Source of the DNA: Muribaculaceae bacterium
Lineage (GTDB): Bacteria; Bacteroidota; Bacteroidia; Bacteroidales; Muribaculaceae
Direction: 5' to 3'
DNA length: 64,000 nt
NCBI GenBank assembly: GCA_022509085.1
Contig: JAFLTW010000006.1
Location: 1 to 64,000 of the forward strand
In this document: piece by piece, positions 14-9,687 of the stretch
Numbering within the stretch: position 1 is the stretch's first letter
How the letters are laid out: each line of letters starts with the position of its first letter
The notes under the pieces: generated by a model
The model's database searches: none
What the model was told of the DNA's origin: nothing
The model's input: the letters and a program-made list of their open reading frames with translations, nothing else
Made by a program: the position numbers and the translations under genes

Positions 14-82
14 GTTAAAAAAGGTTCTGCGATTTAGCTGTTCTGCGATTTTCTGTTCTGTTAAAAAGGTTCTGCGATTGTC
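14..82 (-). repeat. AATCGCAGAAC repeat cluster at the 3' end of the epimerase gene
   Basis: Three copies of AATCGCAGAAC, read on the minus strand, are separated by short A/T-rich spacers. They begin just after the epimerase stop codon and run in the same direction as that gene. The same 11-mer recurs at 1158-1400, 1628-1776, 6749, 9803 and 12803. Function is unknown. It is intergenic and not a CRISPR: spacers are short and not unique. Confidence 0.7.
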
Positions 83-1137
83 TATTTGGAGGTGTGGGAG
101 CGGAACCAGGCGACGGTGGCGTCGATGCCGCGCTGGAGCGGCGTCGACGGGAGGAAGCCGGTGGCCTCGGCGAGAGCCGAGGAGTCGGCGAAGGTGCGGT
201 AGACGTCGCCGGGTTGCATGGGGAGGAACTCCTTCCTGGCCTCCCTGCCTATCGATTTCTCGATGGCCCGGATGTAGTCCATGAGTTTTACGGGGCTGGA
301 GTTACCGATGTTGTAGACCCTGTAAGGGGCGGGTGACGTAGCCGGGTCAGGGTGCTGCTCATCCCAGGCAGTGTTCCCCTGCGGGATGACGTCGGCTATC
401 CTGACGACGCCCTCCACGATGTCGTCGATATAAGTGAAGTCGCGATACATGTCGCCGTTGTTGAACACCTTGATGGGTCGGTCGTTGAGGATGGCGTCAA
501 TGAAGAGGTAGGGAGACATGTCGGGACGTCCCCAGGGACCGTAGACGGTGAAGAAGCGCAGGCCGGTGGTGGGAAGGCCGTAGAGCTGCGAGTAGGCGTG
601 AGCCATGAGCTCGTTGCTCTTCTTCGTGGCGGCATAGAGACTCACGGGATGGTCGACGGGATCGCTCTCGGAGAAGGGCACCTTGCCGTTAAGTCCGTAG
701 ACGCTGGAGGAGGAGGCGTAGACGAGGTGGGACACCTTGTAATGGCGGCAGCACTCGAGGATGTTGATGAAGCCGTCGACGTTGCTTTGGATGTAAGCGT
801 GGGGATGGTCGATGGAATAGCGGACGCCGGCCTGGGCGGCGAGATGGATCACGCGGTCGAAGGCGCCGTTGGCGAAGAGCATGCGCATGGCGTCGGTGTC
901 CTCAAGGTTCATGCGGATGAATCGGAGGCGCGGGTCGGCAGAGCTGGTGGAGAGCCGGTACCAGTCGATGTCGGCTTCGGAGAAGCCGAGGAGGGCGAGG
1001 CGCCCGAACTTGAGGACGGGGTCGTAGTAGGAGTTGATGTTGTCGAGGCCGACTACCTCGACATCGCGGCTCTGCAAGAGCCGGCGGCAGACGGCGGCGC
1101 CGATGAACCCGGCAGCGCCGGTGACTAAGTATCGCAT
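82..1137 (-). CDS. NAD-dependent epimerase, UDP-glucuronate 4-epimerase type
   Basis: This is a short-chain dehydrogenase/reductase of the extended class. A Rossmann GAAGFIG motif lies at residues 7-13 and the catalytic Tyr-x-x-x-Lys (YAATK) at 168-172. The later stretch with RFFTVYGPWGRPDM and the MYRDFTYIDD motif is characteristic of UDP-glucuronate 4-epimerases, which convert UDP-GlcA to UDP-GalA in the cytoplasm for surface polysaccharide synthesis. The length of 351 aa is normal. It is the last gene of the minus-strand polysaccharide cluster but is separated from the kinase gene by 650 bp of repeats, so it may have its own promoter. The exact sugar specificity (glucuronate versus another UDP-hexose) is inferred from motifs only. 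Confidence 0.9.
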   Translation of the reverse strand: MRYLVTGAAGFIGAAVCRRLLQSRDVEVVGLDNINSYYDPVLKFGRLALLGFSEADIDWYRLSTSSADPRLRFIRMNLEDTDAMRMLFANGAFDRVIHLAAQAGVRYSIDHPHAYIQSNVDGFINILECCRHYKVSHLVYASSSSVYGLNGKVPFSESDPVDHPVSLYAATKKSNELMAHAYSQLYGLPTTGLRFFTVYGPWGRPDMSPYLFIDAILNDRPIKVFNNGDMYRDFTYIDDIVEGVVRIADVIPQGNTAWDEQHPDPATSPAPYRVYNIGNSSPVKLMDYIRAIEKSIGREARKEFLPMQPGDVYRTFADSSALAEATGFLPSTPLQRGIDATVAWFRSHTSK

Positions 1138-1157
1138 AACAGTGGGGGTAATGGGGT

Positions 1158-1450
1158 CAATCGCAGAACTTTTTTATCGCAGAACTCTTTATATGTTAGC
1201 ATGTTCGAACGCATTTAACGAGCGGAACGACGCGGAGGATATGGGGACTCTCGCACATTGAGTTTAATCGCAGAACTTTTTTATCGCAGAACTCTTTATA
1301 TGTGAGCATGTTCGAGCGCAAGTAACGGGCGGAACAACGCGGTGGATATGGGGACTCGCGCACATTGAGTTTAATCGCAGAACTCTTTGATCGCAGAACT
1401 CTTTATATGTTAACATGTTCGAGCGCAAGTAACGAGCGGAACAACGCGGA
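1158..1450 (+). repeat. Three tandem ~107-bp intergenic repeat units
   Basis: Three consecutive units begin near 1159, 1266 and 1374. Each opens with two copies of ATCGCAGAAC separated by a T-run, followed by a stretch containing CATGTTCG, AACGAGCGGAAC and a GCGCACATTGAG-like end. Units differ by scattered substitutions. The third runs directly into the structured element at 1481. Related single units occur at 6749 and 9803. No convincing gene lies in 1138-1787. Confidence 0.85.
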
Positions 1451-1480
1451 GGACATCGGATGGGAGGATAGCGCTGTCAT

Positions 1481-1787: not shown

Positions 1788-4226
1788 TTAGGAGTCGGAG
1801 TCGGAGTGGTACTCGTAGCCGTAGCCGTAGCCGTAACCGTAGCCATACTTGTAGGAGTAAGTGTAGCCGTAACGACCCTTCTCGTTCATCGTGCCGTTGA
1901 GTATGAAGGCCATGCGGTTGAACTTCTTCTCCGTATACAGTTTTTCGAGAACCGGCAGCATGGTGCGCTCGAGCAAGCCGGCACGTATTACGAAGACCGT
2001 GCGGTCGGCAAACTTGTCGATAATCTGCGCGTCCGCAACCACCTCGATGGGAGGACAGTCGATGAGAATAAAATCAAACTCCTTCTTGAGGTGCTCCATC
2101 ATCTCGCCAAACCGTCCGCTCTCAAGGAGCTCCGTCGGGTTGGGCGGTATCTTGCCAACAGGCAGGATGTAGAGATTATCGATATCCTGATAGGGCACGA
2201 GGAGGCTGTCGATATTGTTCTCGTTGCCGGCAAGATAGTTGGCCATACCGACCTTCGGCTTGTCGATGTAGGCCGAGGCGGAGGCGTGGCGCATGTCGCC
2301 GTCGATAACAAGCACGCGGTGGTGCTTGAGAGCGAGCGACACACCGAGGTTCATCGCGATGAACGACTTACCGCTGGAGGGATTGAACGAAGTGATGGCC
2401 ACCACATCGCAGCCCTCCTTATTGAGGCGCGTAAAGTCGGTATTGGTGCGGAGCACGCGGAAAGCCTCGTTGACACTGTCGCGCTTGCCGGACTTAACGA
2501 GAGTGACACGCGGAGCGGACGACTCGCCGGCCTTCTTCTTATTGAGTTTAAGCTTGGTGCCGAAAATCCTGGAGGTGATGCCCTTACGCTTGCCAACCTG
2601 AGGAATCTCACCGAGCATGGGGATAGCCAGATCCTCCACATCCTTACGGCCGCGCACCTTGGTATCGGTCATCTCCTTACCGTAGACGATAGCGAAGGGC
2701 ACAAACAACCCGAAGAGGAAGCATCCGGTAAGGATAAGGCTGCTCTTAGGCGAAGTCGGGGCACCCGAGCCGCCCGGGCGTTTGATAACGCGCGTGTTGT
2801 AGGCTGTAAACGCCTGATTGAGCTCATTGTCCTCGCGCTTCTGGAGAAGGAAGAGATAGAGGTTTTCCTTCACCATCTGCTGGCGCTCCACAGAAAGAAG
2901 ATACTTCGCCTGAGTGGGATTGGCTGCCAGGCGGGAAGTAGCTGCACCGCGGGCGCCCTGCAGGCCCTTCATCTGGGTCTGGATATTGAGGATGGAGTTG
3001 TCGACCGAACCGATGATGGCGCTGCGCATGGCATCGAGGTCGTGGTCCATATTCTGCACGAGGGGGTTCTTCTCCGACGACTTAGCCACGAGCGCGTTAC
3101 GCTCGAGGAGCTTGGCGTTGTACTCCCCTATCTGGGACTGGATATCAAGGTTTTCCACACCGGTGTTGGTGGGGAGGGCCTTGTCGTTGCTGCCGTCGGA
3201 GTTTAGATAGCCCTTGATATAGCGGGTCATCTGCAACTGGTTGTTAAGGGCGAGGAGCTGCTGGCTGAGGTCCTGGCTCTCGGCGAGGTAGGAATGAGCG
3301 GCGGCACTGAGGTCGGGAATGGCGTTCTCGCTCTTGTAGGAGGAGATGTCGGAGTCGACATGGCCCAGCTCATCCTCAATCACGTTGAGGCGCTCATTAA
3401 TGAAATTGGAGGTAGAGACCGCAATCTGGTTCTTGTCGCGGATCCAGTTTTCGTTGTAGACACCGATAAGGAAATTGAGCACCTCGTCGGCGCGCTGTAT
3501 GTTCTGGTCGGAGAATGAGAGGTTGATGATGGTGCCCTTCTTGTCGTCGAGTTTCACGGCGAGGCGCGACTCGTAGCTGTTGACAGTAGACTTGAGGGAG
3601 CCCTTGAACACCTCCATGGAAACACCCTTACCCTTATGGTAGCTTGCCGAGGGGGTGACGACGAAGGGACCCATGGGAGAGGGTACGGTGTCGCCGAGCA
3701 CACCTGAGAACGACTTCTCGTAGGCCGTGCCGTAGGTGTTCTGGTTGAGTCTGATGTTTGAGACGGAGTATTTTCCGTCAGCATCGAGCCGGAAGTTGAA
3801 CTGAGTGGCCTCGTTGTCGGGGAAGTCGGGCATCGAGATGCGCACGGGGTTGGTGGTGCCGTAGGCCACGACCTTGTGGAACGTACCGGGGAGGTAGTAG
3901 TTCATCATCAGGTCGAGGCGCTTGACGACCTCTTCCATAAGGTCTGGCGACTTGAAGGATGTGACTTCGTTTTGGATGTTGGTGTTGGTCTGGAGCAGAC
4001 CGAGGTCGCCGAAGTCGTTGATGTTGGTAGCTGTGGACTTTCCTTTGGAGTCTTCCTTGATGAGGACGGATGCAGTCTCGGTGTAGACCTTAGGGGTCTT
4101 GAGGAGGTAGAAGACGCCGAAGAACATGCAGATGGCGATGGAGCAGAGGATCCAGGGCCAGTAGTGGAGCGTCCGGAAGAGGACGTCGAGGAAGGGTACG
4201 GAGTTGTCGGAGTTTTGATTGCTCAT
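1788..4226 (-). CDS. Wzc-type polysaccharide co-polymerase and tyrosine autokinase
   Basis: This 812-aa inner-membrane protein has a transmembrane helix at about 20-40, a long periplasmic Wzz/GNVR-type coiled-coil region, a second membrane helix just before the cytoplasmic part, and a bacterial tyrosine kinase domain. Walker A (PSSGKS) is at 616-621, Walker A' (VIDGDM) near 640, and Walker B (LIDCPP) near 720. The C-terminus, about residues 786-806, has eleven tyrosines at strictly alternating positions followed by DSDS, the autophosphorylation cluster of this family. It lies 14 bp downstream of the Wza gene in the same operon. The family controls chain length and export of extracellular polysaccharide. 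The tyrosine tail is encoded by near-perfect short DNA repeats, so it could change length by slippage. Confidence 0.95.
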   Translation of the reverse strand: MSNQNSDNSVPFLDVLFRTLHYWPWILCSIAICMFFGVFYLLKTPKVYTETASVLIKEDSKGKSTATNINDFGDLGLLQTNTNIQNEVTSFKSPDLMEEVVKRLDLMMNYYLPGTFHKVVAYGTTNPVRISMPDFPDNEATQFNFRLDADGKYSVSNIRLNQNTYGTAYEKSFSGVLGDTVPSPMGPFVVTPSASYHKGKGVSMEVFKGSLKSTVNSYESRLAVKLDDKKGTIINLSFSDQNIQRADEVLNFLIGVYNENWIRDKNQIAVSTSNFINERLNVIEDELGHVDSDISSYKSENAIPDLSAAAHSYLAESQDLSQQLLALNNQLQMTRYIKGYLNSDGSNDKALPTNTGVENLDIQSQIGEYNAKLLERNALVAKSSEKNPLVQNMDHDLDAMRSAIIGSVDNSILNIQTQMKGLQGARGAATSRLAANPTQAKYLLSVERQQMVKENLYLFLLQKREDNELNQAFTAYNTRVIKRPGGSGAPTSPKSSLILTGCFLFGLFVPFAIVYGKEMTDTKVRGRKDVEDLAIPMLGEIPQVGKRKGITSRIFGTKLKLNKKKAGESSAPRVTLVKSGKRDSVNEAFRVLRTNTDFTRLNKEGCDVVAITSFNPSSGKSFIAMNLGVSLALKHHRVLVIDGDMRHASASAYIDKPKVGMANYLAGNENNIDSLLVPYQDIDNLYILPVGKIPPNPTELLESGRFGEMMEHLKKEFDFILIDCPPIEVVADAQIIDKFADRTVFVIRAGLLERTMLPVLEKLYTEKKFNRMAFILNGTMNEKGRYGYTYSYKYGYGYGYGYGYEYHSDSDS

Positions 4227-4240
4227 ATGTCAGGAGTAGA

Positions 4241-5059
4241 TTAGCGGGTGAGGGTGATGACCATGGTGGCGATGGTGACGGCGAGAGAGCCGACGGAGAT
4301 CCAGAAGGAGGGTTGGAAGGGAGTGTTGCCGGCGGAGGTCGTCTCGCGCTTTGCGCGGTCGTTGGGCTCGACGTAGATGACGTCTTCCTGCTGGAGGTAG
4401 TAAGCGGGGCTCATGGCCAGGGAGCGACCGTCGGTCATGTCGATGATGTAGGTCTCCTTCTTGTCGCCGAGTTGGCGGATCACCATGACGTTGTCGCGAC
4501 GGCCGGTATTTTTCATGTCGCCGGCCATTGTGAGGGCGTCGATGATGGTCATACGGTCGCGGTTGAACTCATAGCGGCCGGGGCGCGCCACCTCACCGAG
4601 TACGGAGACACCGGTATTGATAAACTCGACTGTGACGACGGGCTGCTTCACGAGGTCTTCCTTGATGAGGCGGCTCTCGATAAACTCGGCCACCTCATCG
4701 CGGCGCATGCCGGCGATGTGGAGTTTGCCGAGGACGGGGAAGTTGATGTTGCCCTGCTCATCGACGGTGTAGTAGGAGACGCGGGAGTCGTTCTGGTATT
4801 GGGCGTTGCCGGTGACGTTGCCGGCGTTAAGGCGCGTCTGGGTCTGCACGAGGTTGAGCAGCGAGGAGAGGGCAGCGTCCTGGGTGCTGACGATGATGGA
4901 GAGCTTGTCTTCGGGACGTACGCGGATGTCGTAGACCTTCTGGGGGAGCATCTGCTCGCCCTGGGCGAGGTCTTGGAAGTAGGCGATGTTTTTGGGTGTT
5001 GAGCAGGAGGAGAGGAGGATGATGGCGGCGGAGGCCGCGAGGAGGTTAATCTTTTTCAT
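4241..5059 (-). CDS. Wza-type polysaccharide export lipoprotein
   Basis: This 272-aa protein has a lipoprotein signal peptide (lipobox LLSSC, mature Cys about residue 19) followed by STPKNIAYFQDL, typical of Bacteroidota export proteins. The polysaccharide-export domain (residues about 40-130, with VRPEDKLSI) precedes an SLBB-type region (GEVARPGRYEF), and a hydrophobic helix ends the protein (about 250-270). The family forms the outer-membrane/periplasmic exit for capsule or exopolysaccharide. It sits between the NusG-like fusion regulator (31 bp upstream) and the Wzc kinase (14 bp downstream), which fits one operon with kinase and exporter acting together. Confidence 0.93.
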   Translation of the reverse strand: MKKINLLAASAAIILLSSCSTPKNIAYFQDLAQGEQMLPQKVYDIRVRPEDKLSIIVSTQDAALSSLLNLVQTQTRLNAGNVTGNAQYQNDSRVSYYTVDEQGNINFPVLGKLHIAGMRRDEVAEFIESRLIKEDLVKQPVVTVEFINTGVSVLGEVARPGRYEFNRDRMTIIDALTMAGDMKNTGRRDNVMVIRQLGDKKETYIIDMTDGRSLAMSPAYYLQQEDVIYVEPNDRAKRETTSAGNTPFQPSFWISVGSLAVTIATMVITLTR

Positions 5060-5090
5060 ATGTTAGCAGGTTCGGTATATAATCGCAGGG

Positions 5091-6512
5091 TTAGAGGAGG
5101 GGGCGGACGAGGGAGGGGTCGGTGAAGCGCCACTCGATGTCGTTGGCGTCGCCGAAGATGCGGAGGCGATAGACGGTGCCTTTCTTGCCGTGGGAGAGGT
5201 CGATGACCTCACCGGAAAGACCCAGGAAGGGTCCGCCAATTACAACCACCTGAGTGTCGGGGAGCAGAGGCAGCGAACCGGCCGGCGCCACCTCGACCTC
5301 GGGTGTGAACGACTCTACCGTGAGGCGGAAGAGCGCCATGGAGCTGTCGGAGATGACGGCGTAGGAGCCCGCGGAGCGGTAGCACCACGCCACAGAACCA
5401 ATGTGGCGGAAAAGCGCCGGGATATCGGAGATGCGATAACGGAAAAACACGATATCGCCTATGACGGGTTTCTTGCGGAAGAGCAATCTCCCCCCTATCC
5501 TGTCGGAAATCTCCTCGTAGGGGTAGAAAATCTCGGGTTTCGGCATCCCCTCCCCGACGGCGTCGGCCAGGGCCTTCTCAAGCCGCGGGAAGCGGACACC
5601 CAGACGCATCTTCATCGCAAACCAGCGGAGCGGGTTGGAGAGGAAGAACCGACCGACAGTCCGCACGATGGAACGCCTGAGGTCGGCAGGGAGCTCCACA
5701 TCCTCCGAACAGAGCGAGAGGACCGGGAGCAGCGCCGGGAAACGGGGCACGACGGCCAGAGCCGCGTGGGGGGCAACGCCACAGGAGAGCGCGGCCAGCA
5801 CCCAGACAGCGATGAGCACCGACTCCGCATCGGAGCCAAACGCGAGGAGACGGGAGGCAAGCAGTGCCTGCACCTTCTCCCCTACCTCCTGCGAGAGCTG
5901 ACGGGGTGTAAGGCGCGACTGTGAGAGCGGAAAAACGTATTTGCGCGATGTGGAGACGAACGGCTCGAGCCATTCGCGCGTGGCCTTGTCGAACGAGGGA
6001 ACGTCTTCCTTACGGATGCCGGCGACCTCGGAGAGCGGGCAGGCACCGTTTAGAAGGGAGACGAGCATCAGAGCGAACGGAAGGCGGTCTTTTGCCGGCA
6101 CTCCCCTCTTTATGAAGGCAGAGAACCGGTTAAGGTCGGCCAAGGAGATACGTGCCGACCAGACGTCAGGGAGCAGGCTGAGGAGACGGGCCTTGACCTG
6201 CTGGAAGTCGCCGGCCGGGAGGGCCGGGTATTCGGTGCGGGCCCGGCTATAGAGGGCGGAGATGATGTCGAAGTAGTGGATGGCGGTCTTGGATGAGAGG
6301 CCGTCGAAGAACATGTAGACGAGCCACTGCTCGAGGCACAGGCGCGAGCCGACGACGAGGTTGTCGGGGGCTGAGGCGAGGAATGCGGAGAAGCAGCGGA
6401 GGGCCTTGAGGTAGTTGGGGCGTGAGCGCTCGGCGCGCGACTCTACGGCCGACCGGAAGAAGTCGAGGAGTTGCGTAGAGGTAACGGGTTGAGTGTTAGC
6501 AGACTGGCTCAC
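5091..6512 (-). CDS. Fusion of an integrase-like domain with a NusG/UpxY-like antiterminator
   Basis: This 473-aa protein appears to have two parts. Residues 1-250 resemble a tyrosine recombinase: a SAM-like helical N-terminus (about 15-95), then a core-like stretch (LLNGACPLSEVAGIRKED, 153-170) where active enzymes carry a catalytic Arg that is absent here. No R-H-x-x-R-Y set is visible. Residues about 335-473 resemble the NusG N-terminal domain and a KOW motif (GPFLGLSGEVIDL, about 427-439), as in UpxY capsule antiterminators. It is the first gene of the exopolysaccharide operon, where such regulators usually act on the leader of their own transcript. My inference is a dead recombinase fold reused for DNA or RNA binding in transcription elongation control. 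The NusG part is the surer call. Confidence 0.75.
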   Translation of the reverse strand: MSQSANTQPVTSTQLLDFFRSAVESRAERSRPNYLKALRCFSAFLASAPDNLVVGSRLCLEQWLVYMFFDGLSSKTAIHYFDIISALYSRARTEYPALPAGDFQQVKARLLSLLPDVWSARISLADLNRFSAFIKRGVPAKDRLPFALMLVSLLNGACPLSEVAGIRKEDVPSFDKATREWLEPFVSTSRKYVFPLSQSRLTPRQLSQEVGEKVQALLASRLLAFGSDAESVLIAVWVLAALSCGVAPHAALAVVPRFPALLPVLSLCSEDVELPADLRRSIVRTVGRFFLSNPLRWFAMKMRLGVRFPRLEKALADAVGEGMPKPEIFYPYEEISDRIGGRLLFRKKPVIGDIVFFRYRISDIPALFRHIGSVAWCYRSAGSYAVISDSSMALFRLTVESFTPEVEVAPAGSLPLLPDTQVVVIGGPFLGLSGEVIDLSHGKKGTVYRLRIFGDANDIEWRFTDPSLVRPLL

Positions 6513-6680
6513 GCAGAGGTTTTAACTTTGGGGGAAAAGGAGAGTACAATTATTGACTCCGCGAAAGCCGGGGGTTATGGCCCTGGATGTCGGGGAGCTG
6601 TAAAGAGGGAGGGTTGTGGTCCTCCAGGCGGTTAGTTCATACGTCATTACAATCCGCGCGCGTGCGCGTGAATTATGTTG

Positions 6681-6711
6681 CAAAGTTAATAAAAAAAAAT
6701 GAGATGGGAAA
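6681..6711 (-). promoter_or_regulatory. Promoter of the exopolysaccharide operon
   Basis: On the minus strand a -7 element TAACTTTG (6681-6688) has a near-consensus -33 element TTTC (6708-6711) 19 nt upstream. The predicted transcript starts near 6675, leaving a leader of about 160 nt before the fusion regulator's ATG. The leader can form GGAGG/CCTCC hairpins. An alternating CG/TG tract lies at 6653-6670. Confidence 0.6.
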
Positions 6712-6748
6712 GCCCGGATCGCGGTGGGTTGGACTCGCGCACTTCGAT

Positions 6749-6827
6749 TAATCGCAGAACTTTTTGATCGCAGAACATTTTTCTAAGGCTGGTTCGTGCG
6801 CAAGTAACGAGCAGAACAACGCAGTGG
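6749..6827 (+). repeat. Single AATCGCAGAAC-type intergenic repeat unit
   Basis: Two ATCGCAGAAC copies in tandem are followed by a GTTCGTGCGCAAGTAACGAG-like stretch and CAACGCAGTGG. It matches the units at 1158-1450 and 9803. It lies between the fusion-regulator promoter and the terminator of the OmpA operon. Confidence 0.75.
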
Positions 6828-6840
6828 ATACGGTGAAGAG

Positions 6841-6870
6841 AGACCCCGGCTCCGGGAGGAGTCGGGGTCT
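6841..6870 (-). terminator. Terminator-like hairpin after the OmpA gene
   Basis: AGACCCCG-x-CTCC pairs with GGAG-x-CGGGGTCT around a GGGA loop, 27 bp past the OmpA-family stop. It is GC-rich. The minus strand continues TCTCTT rather than a clean T-run. Confidence 0.6.
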
Positions 6871-6897
6871 ATGGGGATATAAGGATTTTGCTTTAGG

Positions 6898-8763
6898 TTA
6901 CTTGACGTAGTGGATCTTCACTTTCACGCCGCGGTTGAGCTTGGCGTCGAGGCCACGGGTGCTCTTGTCGGTGACGGTGTTGATTGAATTGTTGCCACCG
7001 GTGATGTAGCTTTCGGTGAGAACGCCCTGGAGGTTGGGGTTCTGCTGGAGCCACTTGAGCACGGACTCAGCACGGTTTTCGGAAAGGGCGCTGTTGCGCT
7101 CGATACCTACCTGGTTGGCATTGGCACCGGTGTAGTTGTCCTGGCTGGTAGCCATACCTTCCGTCATGATGAGAGTGATCGTGCCGTTGTTGAGGATATC
7201 CTTGATGCGGGCAACAGTTGCGGGATCGGTGAACTGGGAGATGTAGCCTTCGTTGCCGTTGACAGCAGCGTAGACATCAGCGAAGCTGACGAGTTCGTCG
7301 TTGCCAACCTCGAAGTTTTCGCGGAGGATATCGAGACCGCTGTGAGCGTTAAGACCGAAGGAGGTGGACTCCGCATAGTTGGCGTCGCTGAGGAGGGTCT
7401 GACCCTGGGTAGCGTCGTCGATACGATACTGCCAAGTGTGGCGACCGTCGTAGATTGGAGCATAGAAGAAGCCTTCCTTCTCCTCAAACGCCTCCATATC
7501 AGCGGGAGCGAGGCTCAGAGAGAGCGGAGTGGTGTTGGACATCTCATAACCACGGGGCACGTCGAGACCGAAGGTGAGGTTTTCGGCAAGTTCGGTGGGG
7601 ATATCCTCGGTAGCGAGACCGTTGAGCGAGCGACCTGCCTCAAGACGAGCGGCTGCGGCGTCGGTATCGGCATACTTCTTCTGGGTGTAGAGACCACCGG
7701 CGAGGTAGTCGATAGTATTCACGTCGGCATCTGCGATGACGGGAGCATCGTTGCGGCCGGAGTAGTTGTTGGGATAGAAGACATAGAATGTCATAGTGCC
7801 CTGCTCGGCTACACCGTGGGTAGGAGCGGCACCTTCGCGTTCGCGGATAACGAGGACGTCGCGCTCGCGGTAGTCGGTCTGATAGATAGTGGTCGGGGTC
7901 TTTGCCCAGCCGCGGTAGCGCTTGCCACCGAGGTAATAGGTAGCACCGATAGCGATACCGAGGTTTACGTCAACCTTGGAACCGTTGTGAGCACCCATAC
8001 CAGAAGACTGAAGGTCGTGGTTGGTCTGATAGAAAAGACCACGGGCCTTGAAATCAAGCGACCAAGCCTTGGCGGGGGTGAAGAATCGGCTGTACTGGAG
8101 TTCGGCATGGAAGCTGAGCTCATTGTCGGAATACTCAACCTTACCGAAGCCCATGTGGTGAACCATACCCACACCGAGAGCGAGCATAAACTGGTTCATC
8201 AACTTCTTGTTGTCCACACCCTCATATCCGCGGATAAGACGGGACAGGTTGAGGATACCGCTGATGCTGAGGTCCCACCAGTTGGTTTTCATTCTCTGGT
8301 AAGCGAAGGATCCATCGGGGTTGTAGACGGGATAGCCGTCGCCATAGATACTGTTGGGGTTGCGGGTAAAGCCACGGGAAGAGGAGCGCTCGAACTCAAT
8401 CTTGGCACCGACACCGGGGGTGAACCATTTACCAACACCTATAGATACATCGGGAGACAGAGTGTAAGCGAAGTTACCGAGCTTGGACTGCTCAGTGAGG
8501 AGTGTATGATAACCGAAAGTGGCGAAAACAAACCAGTTTTTCTTGAAGTTGTTTTCAAGCACGACGGGAGAGTTGTCCTGAATCTGAGTTTCCACGAGAA
8601 CTGTAGTGGGACCCTGATAGGTGATAGTGTCGCGATAGATTTCCTTGAAATTGTCGCCTGCGGGCACACCCTTATGCTCGGCATACTCAATCTGAGCCTG
8701 AGCGAGTGCGAAAGAGCCAAGGCAGGCGAGGGAAAGAAGTGCTTTAGCAGTAAAATTTCTCAT
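6898..8763 (-). CDS. OmpA-family outer membrane protein
   Basis: This 621-aa protein has a signal peptide (cleavage after AQAQ, about residue 24). The large middle part reads as outer-membrane beta-strands with alternating hydrophobic residues and aromatic ends. A C-terminal OmpA-like peptidoglycan-binding domain spans about 490-621, where NSALSENRAESVLKWL matches the family helix. It likely anchors the outer membrane to peptidoglycan. The DUF5683 gene lies 27 bp upstream in the same direction, probably co-transcribed. A terminator-like hairpin follows. No truncation is seen. Confidence 0.88.
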   Translation of the reverse strand: MRNFTAKALLSLACLGSFALAQAQIEYAEHKGVPAGDNFKEIYRDTITYQGPTTVLVETQIQDNSPVVLENNFKKNWFVFATFGYHTLLTEQSKLGNFAYTLSPDVSIGVGKWFTPGVGAKIEFERSSSRGFTRNPNSIYGDGYPVYNPDGSFAYQRMKTNWWDLSISGILNLSRLIRGYEGVDNKKLMNQFMLALGVGMVHHMGFGKVEYSDNELSFHAELQYSRFFTPAKAWSLDFKARGLFYQTNHDLQSSGMGAHNGSKVDVNLGIAIGATYYLGGKRYRGWAKTPTTIYQTDYRERDVLVIREREGAAPTHGVAEQGTMTFYVFYPNNYSGRNDAPVIADADVNTIDYLAGGLYTQKKYADTDAAAARLEAGRSLNGLATEDIPTELAENLTFGLDVPRGYEMSNTTPLSLSLAPADMEAFEEKEGFFYAPIYDGRHTWQYRIDDATQGQTLLSDANYAESTSFGLNAHSGLDILRENFEVGNDELVSFADVYAAVNGNEGYISQFTDPATVARIKDILNNGTITLIMTEGMATSQDNYTGANANQVGIERNSALSENRAESVLKWLQQNPNLQGVLTESYITGGNNSINTVTDKSTRGLDAKLNRGVKVKIHYVK

Positions 8764-8790
8764 CTTTATAATTGAAATTAATCTTGATTT

Positions 8791-9687
8791 TTAGAAAGTG
8801 AAATCGAGGCCGAGGCCGACGTTAAAGCTACCTGAGATGGGGTCGGGAGTAACGACGGGTTGCCACGAGAAGGAGGCATTGTAGGTGTTGGGACGTGAGA
8901 TCTCGACGCGGCGAGAAATGGGGCAGAACGCGGCGTCAAAGATGTTGTAGACCCAGAGACCGGCTGCTGCAATCAGCGAGAAAGCGCGGAGCTCCTTGAA
9001 AGTCGTGATTTCGTTGTGCCATTCAGGGCTACCGGTTTTGTCGCGGAGGTCCTTATAGTGATGATAGCGGTTGACCGACATAGCGAACACACCCCAGAGA
9101 GCGATATCCGTACCGAAGAAGATCCAACCCTTAACATTCTGGCCCTTATAGACCTGACCCATACCGGGGATGATGGACCAGAGGGTAGCCTTAGCCTTAT
9201 TGTAGCTGCGGGTGACGGTGAAATCGTCGAACTGCGGTTTGTCGACACCGGGCTCGGAGATGGCGTAAAGCTGGTAATAGTTGTATTCAAAATGGTTGAG
9301 CACGAAGTCGTCGAGCTGTGTGAACTGGTCGACGCGCTGCGCGTAGACGGTGCGGGGCTGGCCGGCATCGTTGAAAGAGAGGGTGTAGGTAGTGCGGCCA
9401 TTGGAGGCGTCGGCGATGGAGTCGAGCGTCATCGGGGTATTGGCCGGGAGGTTGTAGGCGGAATCCACATAGGAGATGAGCGGAGCGAAGCGGTCGAGGA
9501 CCAGGACTCCCTCATCGGGGTGTTCCATATGGAAAATGCGGAATTGATAAGTGTCGTTAAGGCGTTGGTTATTGAGTTCCTTAACTCCTTTTTTGACCCA
9601 ACGGGGTTTAGACTGGGCGTAAACACCTGTAGAAAGAGCGAGCGCCAAGAGGAGCAGGATCAACCTACACATCTTACTAGTCTTCAT
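8791..9687 (-). CDS. DUF5683-type envelope protein
   Basis: This 298-aa protein has a signal peptide ending at VYAQ (about residue 25). The stretch LWSIIPGMGQVYKGQNVKGW followed by a hydrophobic helix is the signature of the DUF5683 family, common in Bacteroidota. A second hydrophobic segment (about 235-255) and a strand-rich end ending in Phe suggest envelope location. No enzyme motif is visible, so the role is unknown. It is the first gene of the two-gene unit with the OmpA-family protein. Promoter-like elements lie directly upstream. Confidence 0.7.
   Translation of the reverse strand: MKTSKMCRLILLLLALALSTGVYAQSKPRWVKKGVKELNNQRLNDTYQFRIFHMEHPDEGVLVLDRFAPLISYVDSAYNLPANTPMTLDSIADASNGRTTYTLSFNDAGQPRTVYAQRVDQFTQLDDFVLNHFEYNYYQLYAISEPGVDKPQFDDFTVTRSYNKAKATLWSIIPGMGQVYKGQNVKGWIFFGTDIALWGVFAMSVNRYHHYKDLRDKTGSPEWHNEITTFKELRAFSLIAAAGLWVYNIFDAAFCPISRRVEISRPNTYNASFSWQPVVTPDPISGSFNVGLGLDFTF

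Follow-up and report, generated by a model that had tools for sequence, protein, structure and literature searches.

What function does a recombinase-like domain serve when it is fused to the front of a transcription antiterminator? The question is raised by one gene in the DNA analyzed here (the window: 64,000 nucleotides of a Muribaculaceae contig), for which the earlier note had proposed that a dead recombinase fold recruits an antiterminator to a DNA or RNA site at the head of an exopolysaccharide operon. The gene is a 473-codon frame with a GTG start (5091-6512, minus strand), which is open throughout and intact. Its parts and its neighbors are as follows.

5091..6512, minus strand: fused regulator of 473 aa, a tyrosine recombinase module (dead, judging by its residues) followed by an NGN-KOW (UpxY/NusG-type) module
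6174..6479, minus strand: core-binding (SAM-like) domain of the recombinase module, residues 12-113 (sequence match and AlphaFold model)
5640..6173, minus strand: catalytic-like remnant, residues 114-291, with the Lys beta-hairpin deleted and the Arg, His and Tyr positions replaced
5307..5633, minus strand: NGN domain, residues 294-402 (profile match and fold)
5094..5273, minus strand: KOW domain and tail, residues 414-473 (profile match and fold)
4241..5059, minus strand: polysaccharide export protein (Poly_export/SLBB, Wza-like), 31 bp downstream of the fused gene
1788..4226, minus strand: chain-length determinant/tyrosine autokinase (Wzz-GNVR-AAA, Wzc-like)
82..1137, minus strand: NAD-dependent epimerase/dehydratase (the contig ends at the start of the window)

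The structure of the whole protein was predicted and the two halves were searched separately. The AlphaFold model (mean pLDDT 90.8) revealed a tyrosine-recombinase fold in residues 8-291, with both the core-binding and the catalytic domain present, and a NusG/RfaH NGN-KOW fold in residues 292-472; both assignments were confirmed by structure search, so that the proposed fusion of the two modules in a single frame holds, including a structural match for residues 1-250, the stretch on which that proposal had been staked. The core-binding domain is built of five helices (residues 12-24, 31-47, 57-69, 74-94 and 103-113). On its own, the N-terminal half gave weak SAM-like integrase matches (E 0.29 and 0.094). 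In HHalign comparisons, which were run alongside a control, the recombinase module matched live Bacteroidales tyrosine integrases (E 6.4e-25, residues 11-268) and the C-terminal half matched UpxY (E 2.7e-15, 98.5%). In the PDB, the recombinase half matched best to chain 9i5v_14, which is labelled RaiA and has an integrase-like sequence, perhaps owing to a mix-up in labelling.

The UpxY model NF033644 matched residues 297-444 (hmmscan E 6.3e-13, model positions 1-142 of 164) with 49 bits, below its curated cut-off of 100 bits; one relative (locus L163) reached 104.4 bits. The score against the NusG model TIGR00922 was 13.4 bits, also below the cut-off (135.7). The RfaH model TIGR01955 gave no match to the window protein at E ≤1 and matched the relatives L163 and L168 below its cut-off.

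As in the case of upxY genes, the fused gene is the first gene of a predicted exopolysaccharide operon: the Wza-like and Wzc-like genes lie downstream on the same strand, the first after a gap of 31 bp, as had been claimed from the sequence. We searched for the fusion at the start of other such operons and found that many fused genes head polysaccharide operons. Among 65 hand-picked complete first or second downstream genes compared with Pfam, the best 25 of 47 families included flippases (7), nucleotidyl transferases (7), export proteins (6) and aminotransferases (5). No match named UpxZ was obtained for ten small downstream proteins searched against Pfam and ten against NCBIfam (seven shared), libraries either of which may have no UpxZ model.

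Sixty fetched neighborhoods and 48 named loci yielded 104 fused frames, 80 of them unique. One of these (L140) is the window protein re-read with Val for Met, and the collection thus comprises 79 distinct proteins, the one from the window and the others from 77 loci. For several frames the called start lies too far 5′, and in one locus (L119) the fusion is broken into two frames. In another (L087:3084-4301 and 4298-4783, plus strand) the same two modules occur as overlapping frames, which reflects either a later split or an error. Carriers include Duncaniella muris DSM 103720, a named strain (locus L092, fused frame 4117-5634), and the genome of the window contains one full-length copy. Of 297 genomes from the same family, the Muribaculaceae, 70 gave matches (12 of 30 genera), with matches to one half counted in. 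The 48 named loci bear Bacteroidales names, many of them Muribaculaceae, except for one titled Clostridiales, probably a mislabelled bin. Among the matches listed for 393 genomes of the order and 296 of the phylum, both halves were spanned only by the window's own protein; outside the family, the order-wide matches listed cover one half each and are either integrase-like (approx. 280-490 aa) or UpxY-like (approx. 175-240 aa). An early contig scan with the window protein as single query confirmed no fusion. The UpxY model was matched at E ≤1e-8 in at least 115 of 119 genomes of the family, fusions included (at least 82 above the cut-off), and among the matches listed these are mostly frames of 170-250 aa.

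The loss of the catalytic residues was assessed in an alignment of 80 fused rows (79 proteins, the window being counted twice) with eight live integrases. All seven catalytic columns are filled in all eight integrases. In the fused rows the catalytic Lys is never present (0/80) and its beta-hairpin is deleted in 78; the nucleophile Tyr occurs in one row, the first Arg in four, the second Arg in 16 and the GH His in 12. The window protein has G, a gap, S, I, A, R and S at the R-K-H/Y-R-H/W-Y columns, and the absence of a catalytic set, suspected by eye, is thereby established for this protein. Because these columns are lost, most completely those of Lys and Tyr, the recombinase module is, on the evidence of the alignment, catalytically dead.

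The trees of both halves point to a common history. In the N-half tree the 42 fusions formed one branch apart from 17 integrases (support 98/97; 96 in a quick tree), and in the C-half tree they formed one branch apart from 20 UpxY-like proteins (support 86/84; quick tree 89); the samples of integrases and UpxY proteins were small and picked by best score. As both trees fit a single event, the fusion probably arose once, within the Muribaculaceae or in their ancestor. The protein of L163 was closest to the integrases in the quick N tree (80) and deepest in the quick C tree (82), with modest support and a long branch; by eye, it retains the hairpin stretch, has Cys in place of the first Arg and is the less eroded recombinase. 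In the C tree, four of five UpxY-like proteins extended at the C terminus by approx. 100-170 aa (L164:2073-3173, L165:2395-3420, L167:1433-2338, L169:1031-2035 and L170:2461-3618, all on the minus strand) formed a clade apart from standalone UpxY; the five represent a further class of multidomain UpxY in this family.

The likely source of the fusion is suggested by gene order. An integrase gene followed on the same strand by upxY, approx. 425-850 bp apart, was found in three loci of two other families (L171, L172 and L173), and an integrase before upxY is described for capsule loci of Bacteroides xylanisolvens and Parabacteroides distasonis in the available part of a published study (PMC12118408). 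In three fused loci (L057, L060 and L069) a live integrase, with its catalytic residues recognized by eye, is followed by a stretch flanked by inverted repeats and then by the fused gene, which suggests that the fusion replaced upxY and that the dead integrase came along with it. The source genes were therefore probably the integrase and upxY that flank the invertible promoter of classical Bacteroidales capsule loci, and the two may have become fused by loss of the stretch between them.

The region ahead of the fused gene contains two further predicted features.

6681..6688, minus strand: putative Bacteroidales-type -7 promoter element TAACTTTG (motif search, 74 family leaders)
6513..6680, minus strand: untranslated operon leader, approx. 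168 nt if the predicted promoter is right

The promoter motif, TAacTTTGCa, emerged from an unguided motif search over the 74 family leaders and resembles TAnnTTTG, a Bacteroides promoter element; its copy in the window, TAACTTTGCA, lies 176 nt ahead of the start. Farther upstream, a GC-rich stem-loop (6841-6870) just past the OmpA-like gene is probably the terminator of that gene.

When promoter and repeats were masked, a further motif of width 12 was detected in the 77 leaders; its log-likelihood was 161.9, and three shuffled sets did not exceed 37.9. This motif, located mostly 45-75 nt before the called start, constitutes the 3′ arm of a putative hairpin (CCTCTGT, approx. 21 nt, ACAGGGG), whose flank differs between two clades (GGGTCGG versus GGGAAGAG). 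In 38 leaders selected for holding the motif, the 8-pair helix was 80.7% paired versus 72.2 after shuffling, and its covariation score was 0.412 versus 0.289 for shuffled (0 of 500 as high) and 0.18-0.25 for slid alignments. Seven pairs showed a double change, a number likewise reached by 22 of 500 shuffles; the slid control at -3 exceeded the hairpin in double-change cells (31 versus 28), and RNAalifold alone recovered the four outer pairs with a weak energy (-0.78). Because a slid control matches the double changes and RNAalifold finds four pairs, the evidence for pairing is regarded as moderate.

A covariance model detected the hairpin in 37 of 59 loci, nine of which had not been used in building it. 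Every one of these matches lay at the 5′ end of a fused gene (of the split gene L087 in one case), and the rest of the 531,636 bases gave none. Another 29 loci, some of them repeat sequences, gave 11 matches, ten at fused genes and one within a gene. In total, the hairpin precedes 40 of the 77 fused loci, and 37 have none at E ≤1; six of the 38 leaders used to build the model are among these. In three loci not used in the model (L037, L039 and L032) the hairpin is followed after 35 nt by an in-frame start, an indication that these frames were called too long. Standalone upxY genes had the hairpin at none of 32 loci (0/12 and 0/20): in the set of 20 there was one 12.6-bit match away from the gene, with five pairs broken, and in the search of 12 the only match was L163, itself a fusion (15.6 bits, E 0.63). 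In 12 whole genomes four known fused loci ranked first (E 0.002 to 0.07) and the other sites were weak (E ≥0.29). We make no claim for the best extra site in genomes with orphan fusions (E 0.29) or in the rest of the window's genome (E 1.25). The window's own leader (6513-6680) has no hairpin, the best scores being 2.6 bits on the sense strand and 4.6 on the other. Rfam gave nothing at E ≤1 in window positions 4000-9000 and no match at the hairpins of L069, L061 and L050 (there were three matches elsewhere in L069). None of six fusions with a truncated module had the hairpin, versus 40 of 72 others (Fisher 0.011), a comparison of hand-picked lists that ignores relatedness and is to be taken as a lead.

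Taken as a whole, these data are best explained, with a probability that we put somewhat above even, by an operon-specific UpxY-type antiterminator that carries a dead recombinase as its recruitment or specificity module. The NGN-KOW half would join the transcribing RNA polymerase and suppress early termination in the long polysaccharide operon headed by the fused gene, and the recombinase half, descended from a tyrosine integrase like those that invert capsule promoters and stripped of its catalytic residues, would most likely tie the protein to nucleic acid of its own leader. That the fused protein acts in antitermination is very probable; in the available part of one account, UpxY prevents premature termination in the leaders of its own operons (PMC7819879). 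Recruitment through the dead module, the part of the earlier note that goes beyond the fusion, the dead fold and the operon head now supported, stands for us at about even. Another source, again in its available part, cites UpxY as a protein that forms a bridge to the DNA duplex upstream (PMC12691694). A recombinase-derived module beside the NGN would then presumably sit near upstream DNA, which makes recruitment plausible, and two proteins that retain the core-binding domain alone (L085 and L168) point the same way. The association of the hairpin with fused genes also favors recruitment; the low charge of the module and the lack of a hairpin in the window's leader are neutral or against. The hairpin itself may be the target of the dead module or of the NGN, a proposal that we advance with rather less assurance. 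The most detailed version, drawn by analogy, is speculative and we consider it unlikely as it stands: the dead recombinase would read the leader hairpin, as exposed non-template strand or nascent RNA, and deliver the UpxY half to RNA polymerase at no operon but its own, with a separate specificity for each of many paralogues.

The main rival, to which we assign perhaps one chance in a handful or slightly better, is that the dead module makes protein contacts, either covering the NGN until the proper complex is encountered (autoinhibition) or binding a partner. It is supported by the charge of both subdomains: the core-binding domain has a median net charge of +1.0 per 100 aa in 79 fusions (+3 in the window) versus +5.3 in eight live integrases, and the catalytic remnant +0.6 versus 4.9. 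These near-neutral values argue against strong or plain DNA binding, and for this reason recruitment is kept at about even. Autoinhibition is known in the NusG superfamily from RfaH, and entries named 'autoinhibited RfaH' were among the structure matches. However, the core-binding domain is a DNA-contacting part of recombinases, and it is this domain that persists where the catalytic domain is gone (L085:2963-3925, plus strand; L168:2607-3596, minus strand). Moreover, 75 of 79 fusions keep Thr or Ser at residue 76, which falls within a stretch aligned with Cre, and 64 keep Lys or Arg at residue 36, which likewise counts against the rival.

It is improbable that the fused protein is a dead invertase which binds and locks an invertible promoter, competing with the live enzyme and holding the operon in one phase. 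Among 76 upstream regions, 25 contain exact inverted repeats of at least 13 bases where 0.4 would be expected, which we count as a sign of inversion in favor of the main reading. The core that these repeats share, TCTCTTNNNAAGAGA (up to two mismatches), occurred in at least two copies in 24 of 80 regions, which fits the lock, and in one copy in ten, with 2.9 regions expected to have any copy (the 80 are those of 76 fusions and of L163, L168, L087 and L088); the live integrase beside the fusion in three loci fits as well. On the other hand, 46 of the 80 regions lack the core, among them that of the window, which has no inverted repeats either. The same pair is found before a standalone upxY with its integrase (L173) and before a C-terminally extended UpxY gene (L164), and it is thus probably the site of the live integrase. 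The core was absent from all 12 loci L150-L161. In locus L059 two fused genes (54-1463, minus strand; 1967-3442, plus strand) are arranged head to head around one inverted-repeat pair, an arrangement in which promoter inversion could switch regulators.

An equally small probability is given to the N-terminal half being a functionless vestige, with only the UpxY half of importance. The mean share of the major residue is lower in the recombinase module than in the NGN (0.34-0.36 versus 0.52), and the module is shortened in L072, L074, L115 and L123. Against this, it has a high-confidence fold and all or part of it is still present in 79 proteins. W237, the counterpart in the alignment of the Trp in the RHSW motif of integrases, is kept in 78 of 79 proteins, W63 in 75 and Y80 in 67; the residues retained in the dead module are structural ones. 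In the three closest pairs (dS <1) dN/dS was 0.13-0.20 for the core-binding domain and 0.04-0.15 for the catalytic remnant (residues 113-285), which had the lower value in two of the three; these ratios indicate that the module is maintained by purifying selection. Two fused proteins (L118:8001-9875 and L120:280-2433, plus strand) are enlarged by insertions with recurring wording common to both, perhaps translated repeats.

An active recombinase with an extra domain, which the fold match to integrases might suggest, is ruled out by the near-complete loss of the catalytic Lys (0/80) and Tyr (1/80), and the joining of neighboring genes by a sequencing or assembly error, for which the two-frame loci L087 and L119 might be cited, by 79 distinct fused proteins from many genomes, including that of D. 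muris DSM 103720.

With the active recombinases excluded, the protein belongs to the UpxY/NusG kind as a real, recurrent and apparently single-origin fusion. It shares with UpxY (NF033644) a homologous NGN-KOW, a place as first gene of polysaccharide operons and several paralogues per genome, but it is not a stand-alone protein: a recombinase module of approx. 290 aa precedes the NGN in its 473 aa (standalone UpxY frames here have approx. 170-245 aa), its score is below the curated cut-off, and the family hairpin is absent from all 32 standalone upxY loci. With the tyrosine integrases/DNA invertases of Bacteroidales capsule loci, as presented in the available text of PMC12118408, it shares homologous core-binding and catalytic domains (residues 11-268); unlike them, it has no part preceding the core-binding domain, its Lys hairpin is deleted, Arg, His and Tyr are replaced, and NGN-KOW is added. 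Thermotoga maritima NusG likewise has an additional domain, DII, not described as a recombinase in the available part of PMC7819879. A 2016 paper on Muribaculaceae notes capsule loci defined by UpxY, and its main text, as available, contains neither the word integrase nor recombinase (PMC4936053). Our literature search, of incomplete coverage, found no recombinase-UpxY fusion in print.

Integron integrases act on folded single-stranded attC hairpins; they are thus tyrosine recombinase folds that read a hairpin, yet they are catalytically active and have no antiterminator fused. In RfaH, a specialized NusG paralogue, the NGN reads the ops element and the protein is controlled by its own KOW; it has no recombinase module. 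RfaH is called the only well-studied specialized NusG paralogue in the available part of PMC12691694, and how most of the others find only their own operon is, in our reading, an open question. The fusion offers a case in which an antiterminator gained a whole DNA-recognition module, apparently in a single event, and this module then diversified within a gut bacterial family, the recombinase fold apparently being reused in transcription control. Capsule loci in which integrase, invertible promoter and upxY follow one another would here have reached an evolutionary end point. The relatives form a natural series between L163, whose recombinase is less eroded, and L085 and L168, which retain just the core-binding domain; together with the fusion-associated hairpin, this series makes recruitment directly testable by swaps of modules and leaders.

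Some fusions, a point against the main reading, are located away from polysaccharide operon heads (L129, L130, L133, L139 and others, as well as L114, L115, L123, L072 and L074). One clade of such orphans adjoins, for example, GH88 and GH106 genes (L129), and others lie near GidB, YceD or YchF genes. According to hand-made lists, the hairpin is present at 38 of 60 loci of the operon-head type versus 2 of 17 orphan-like loci. By analogy with RfaH, the orphan fusions may act in trans.
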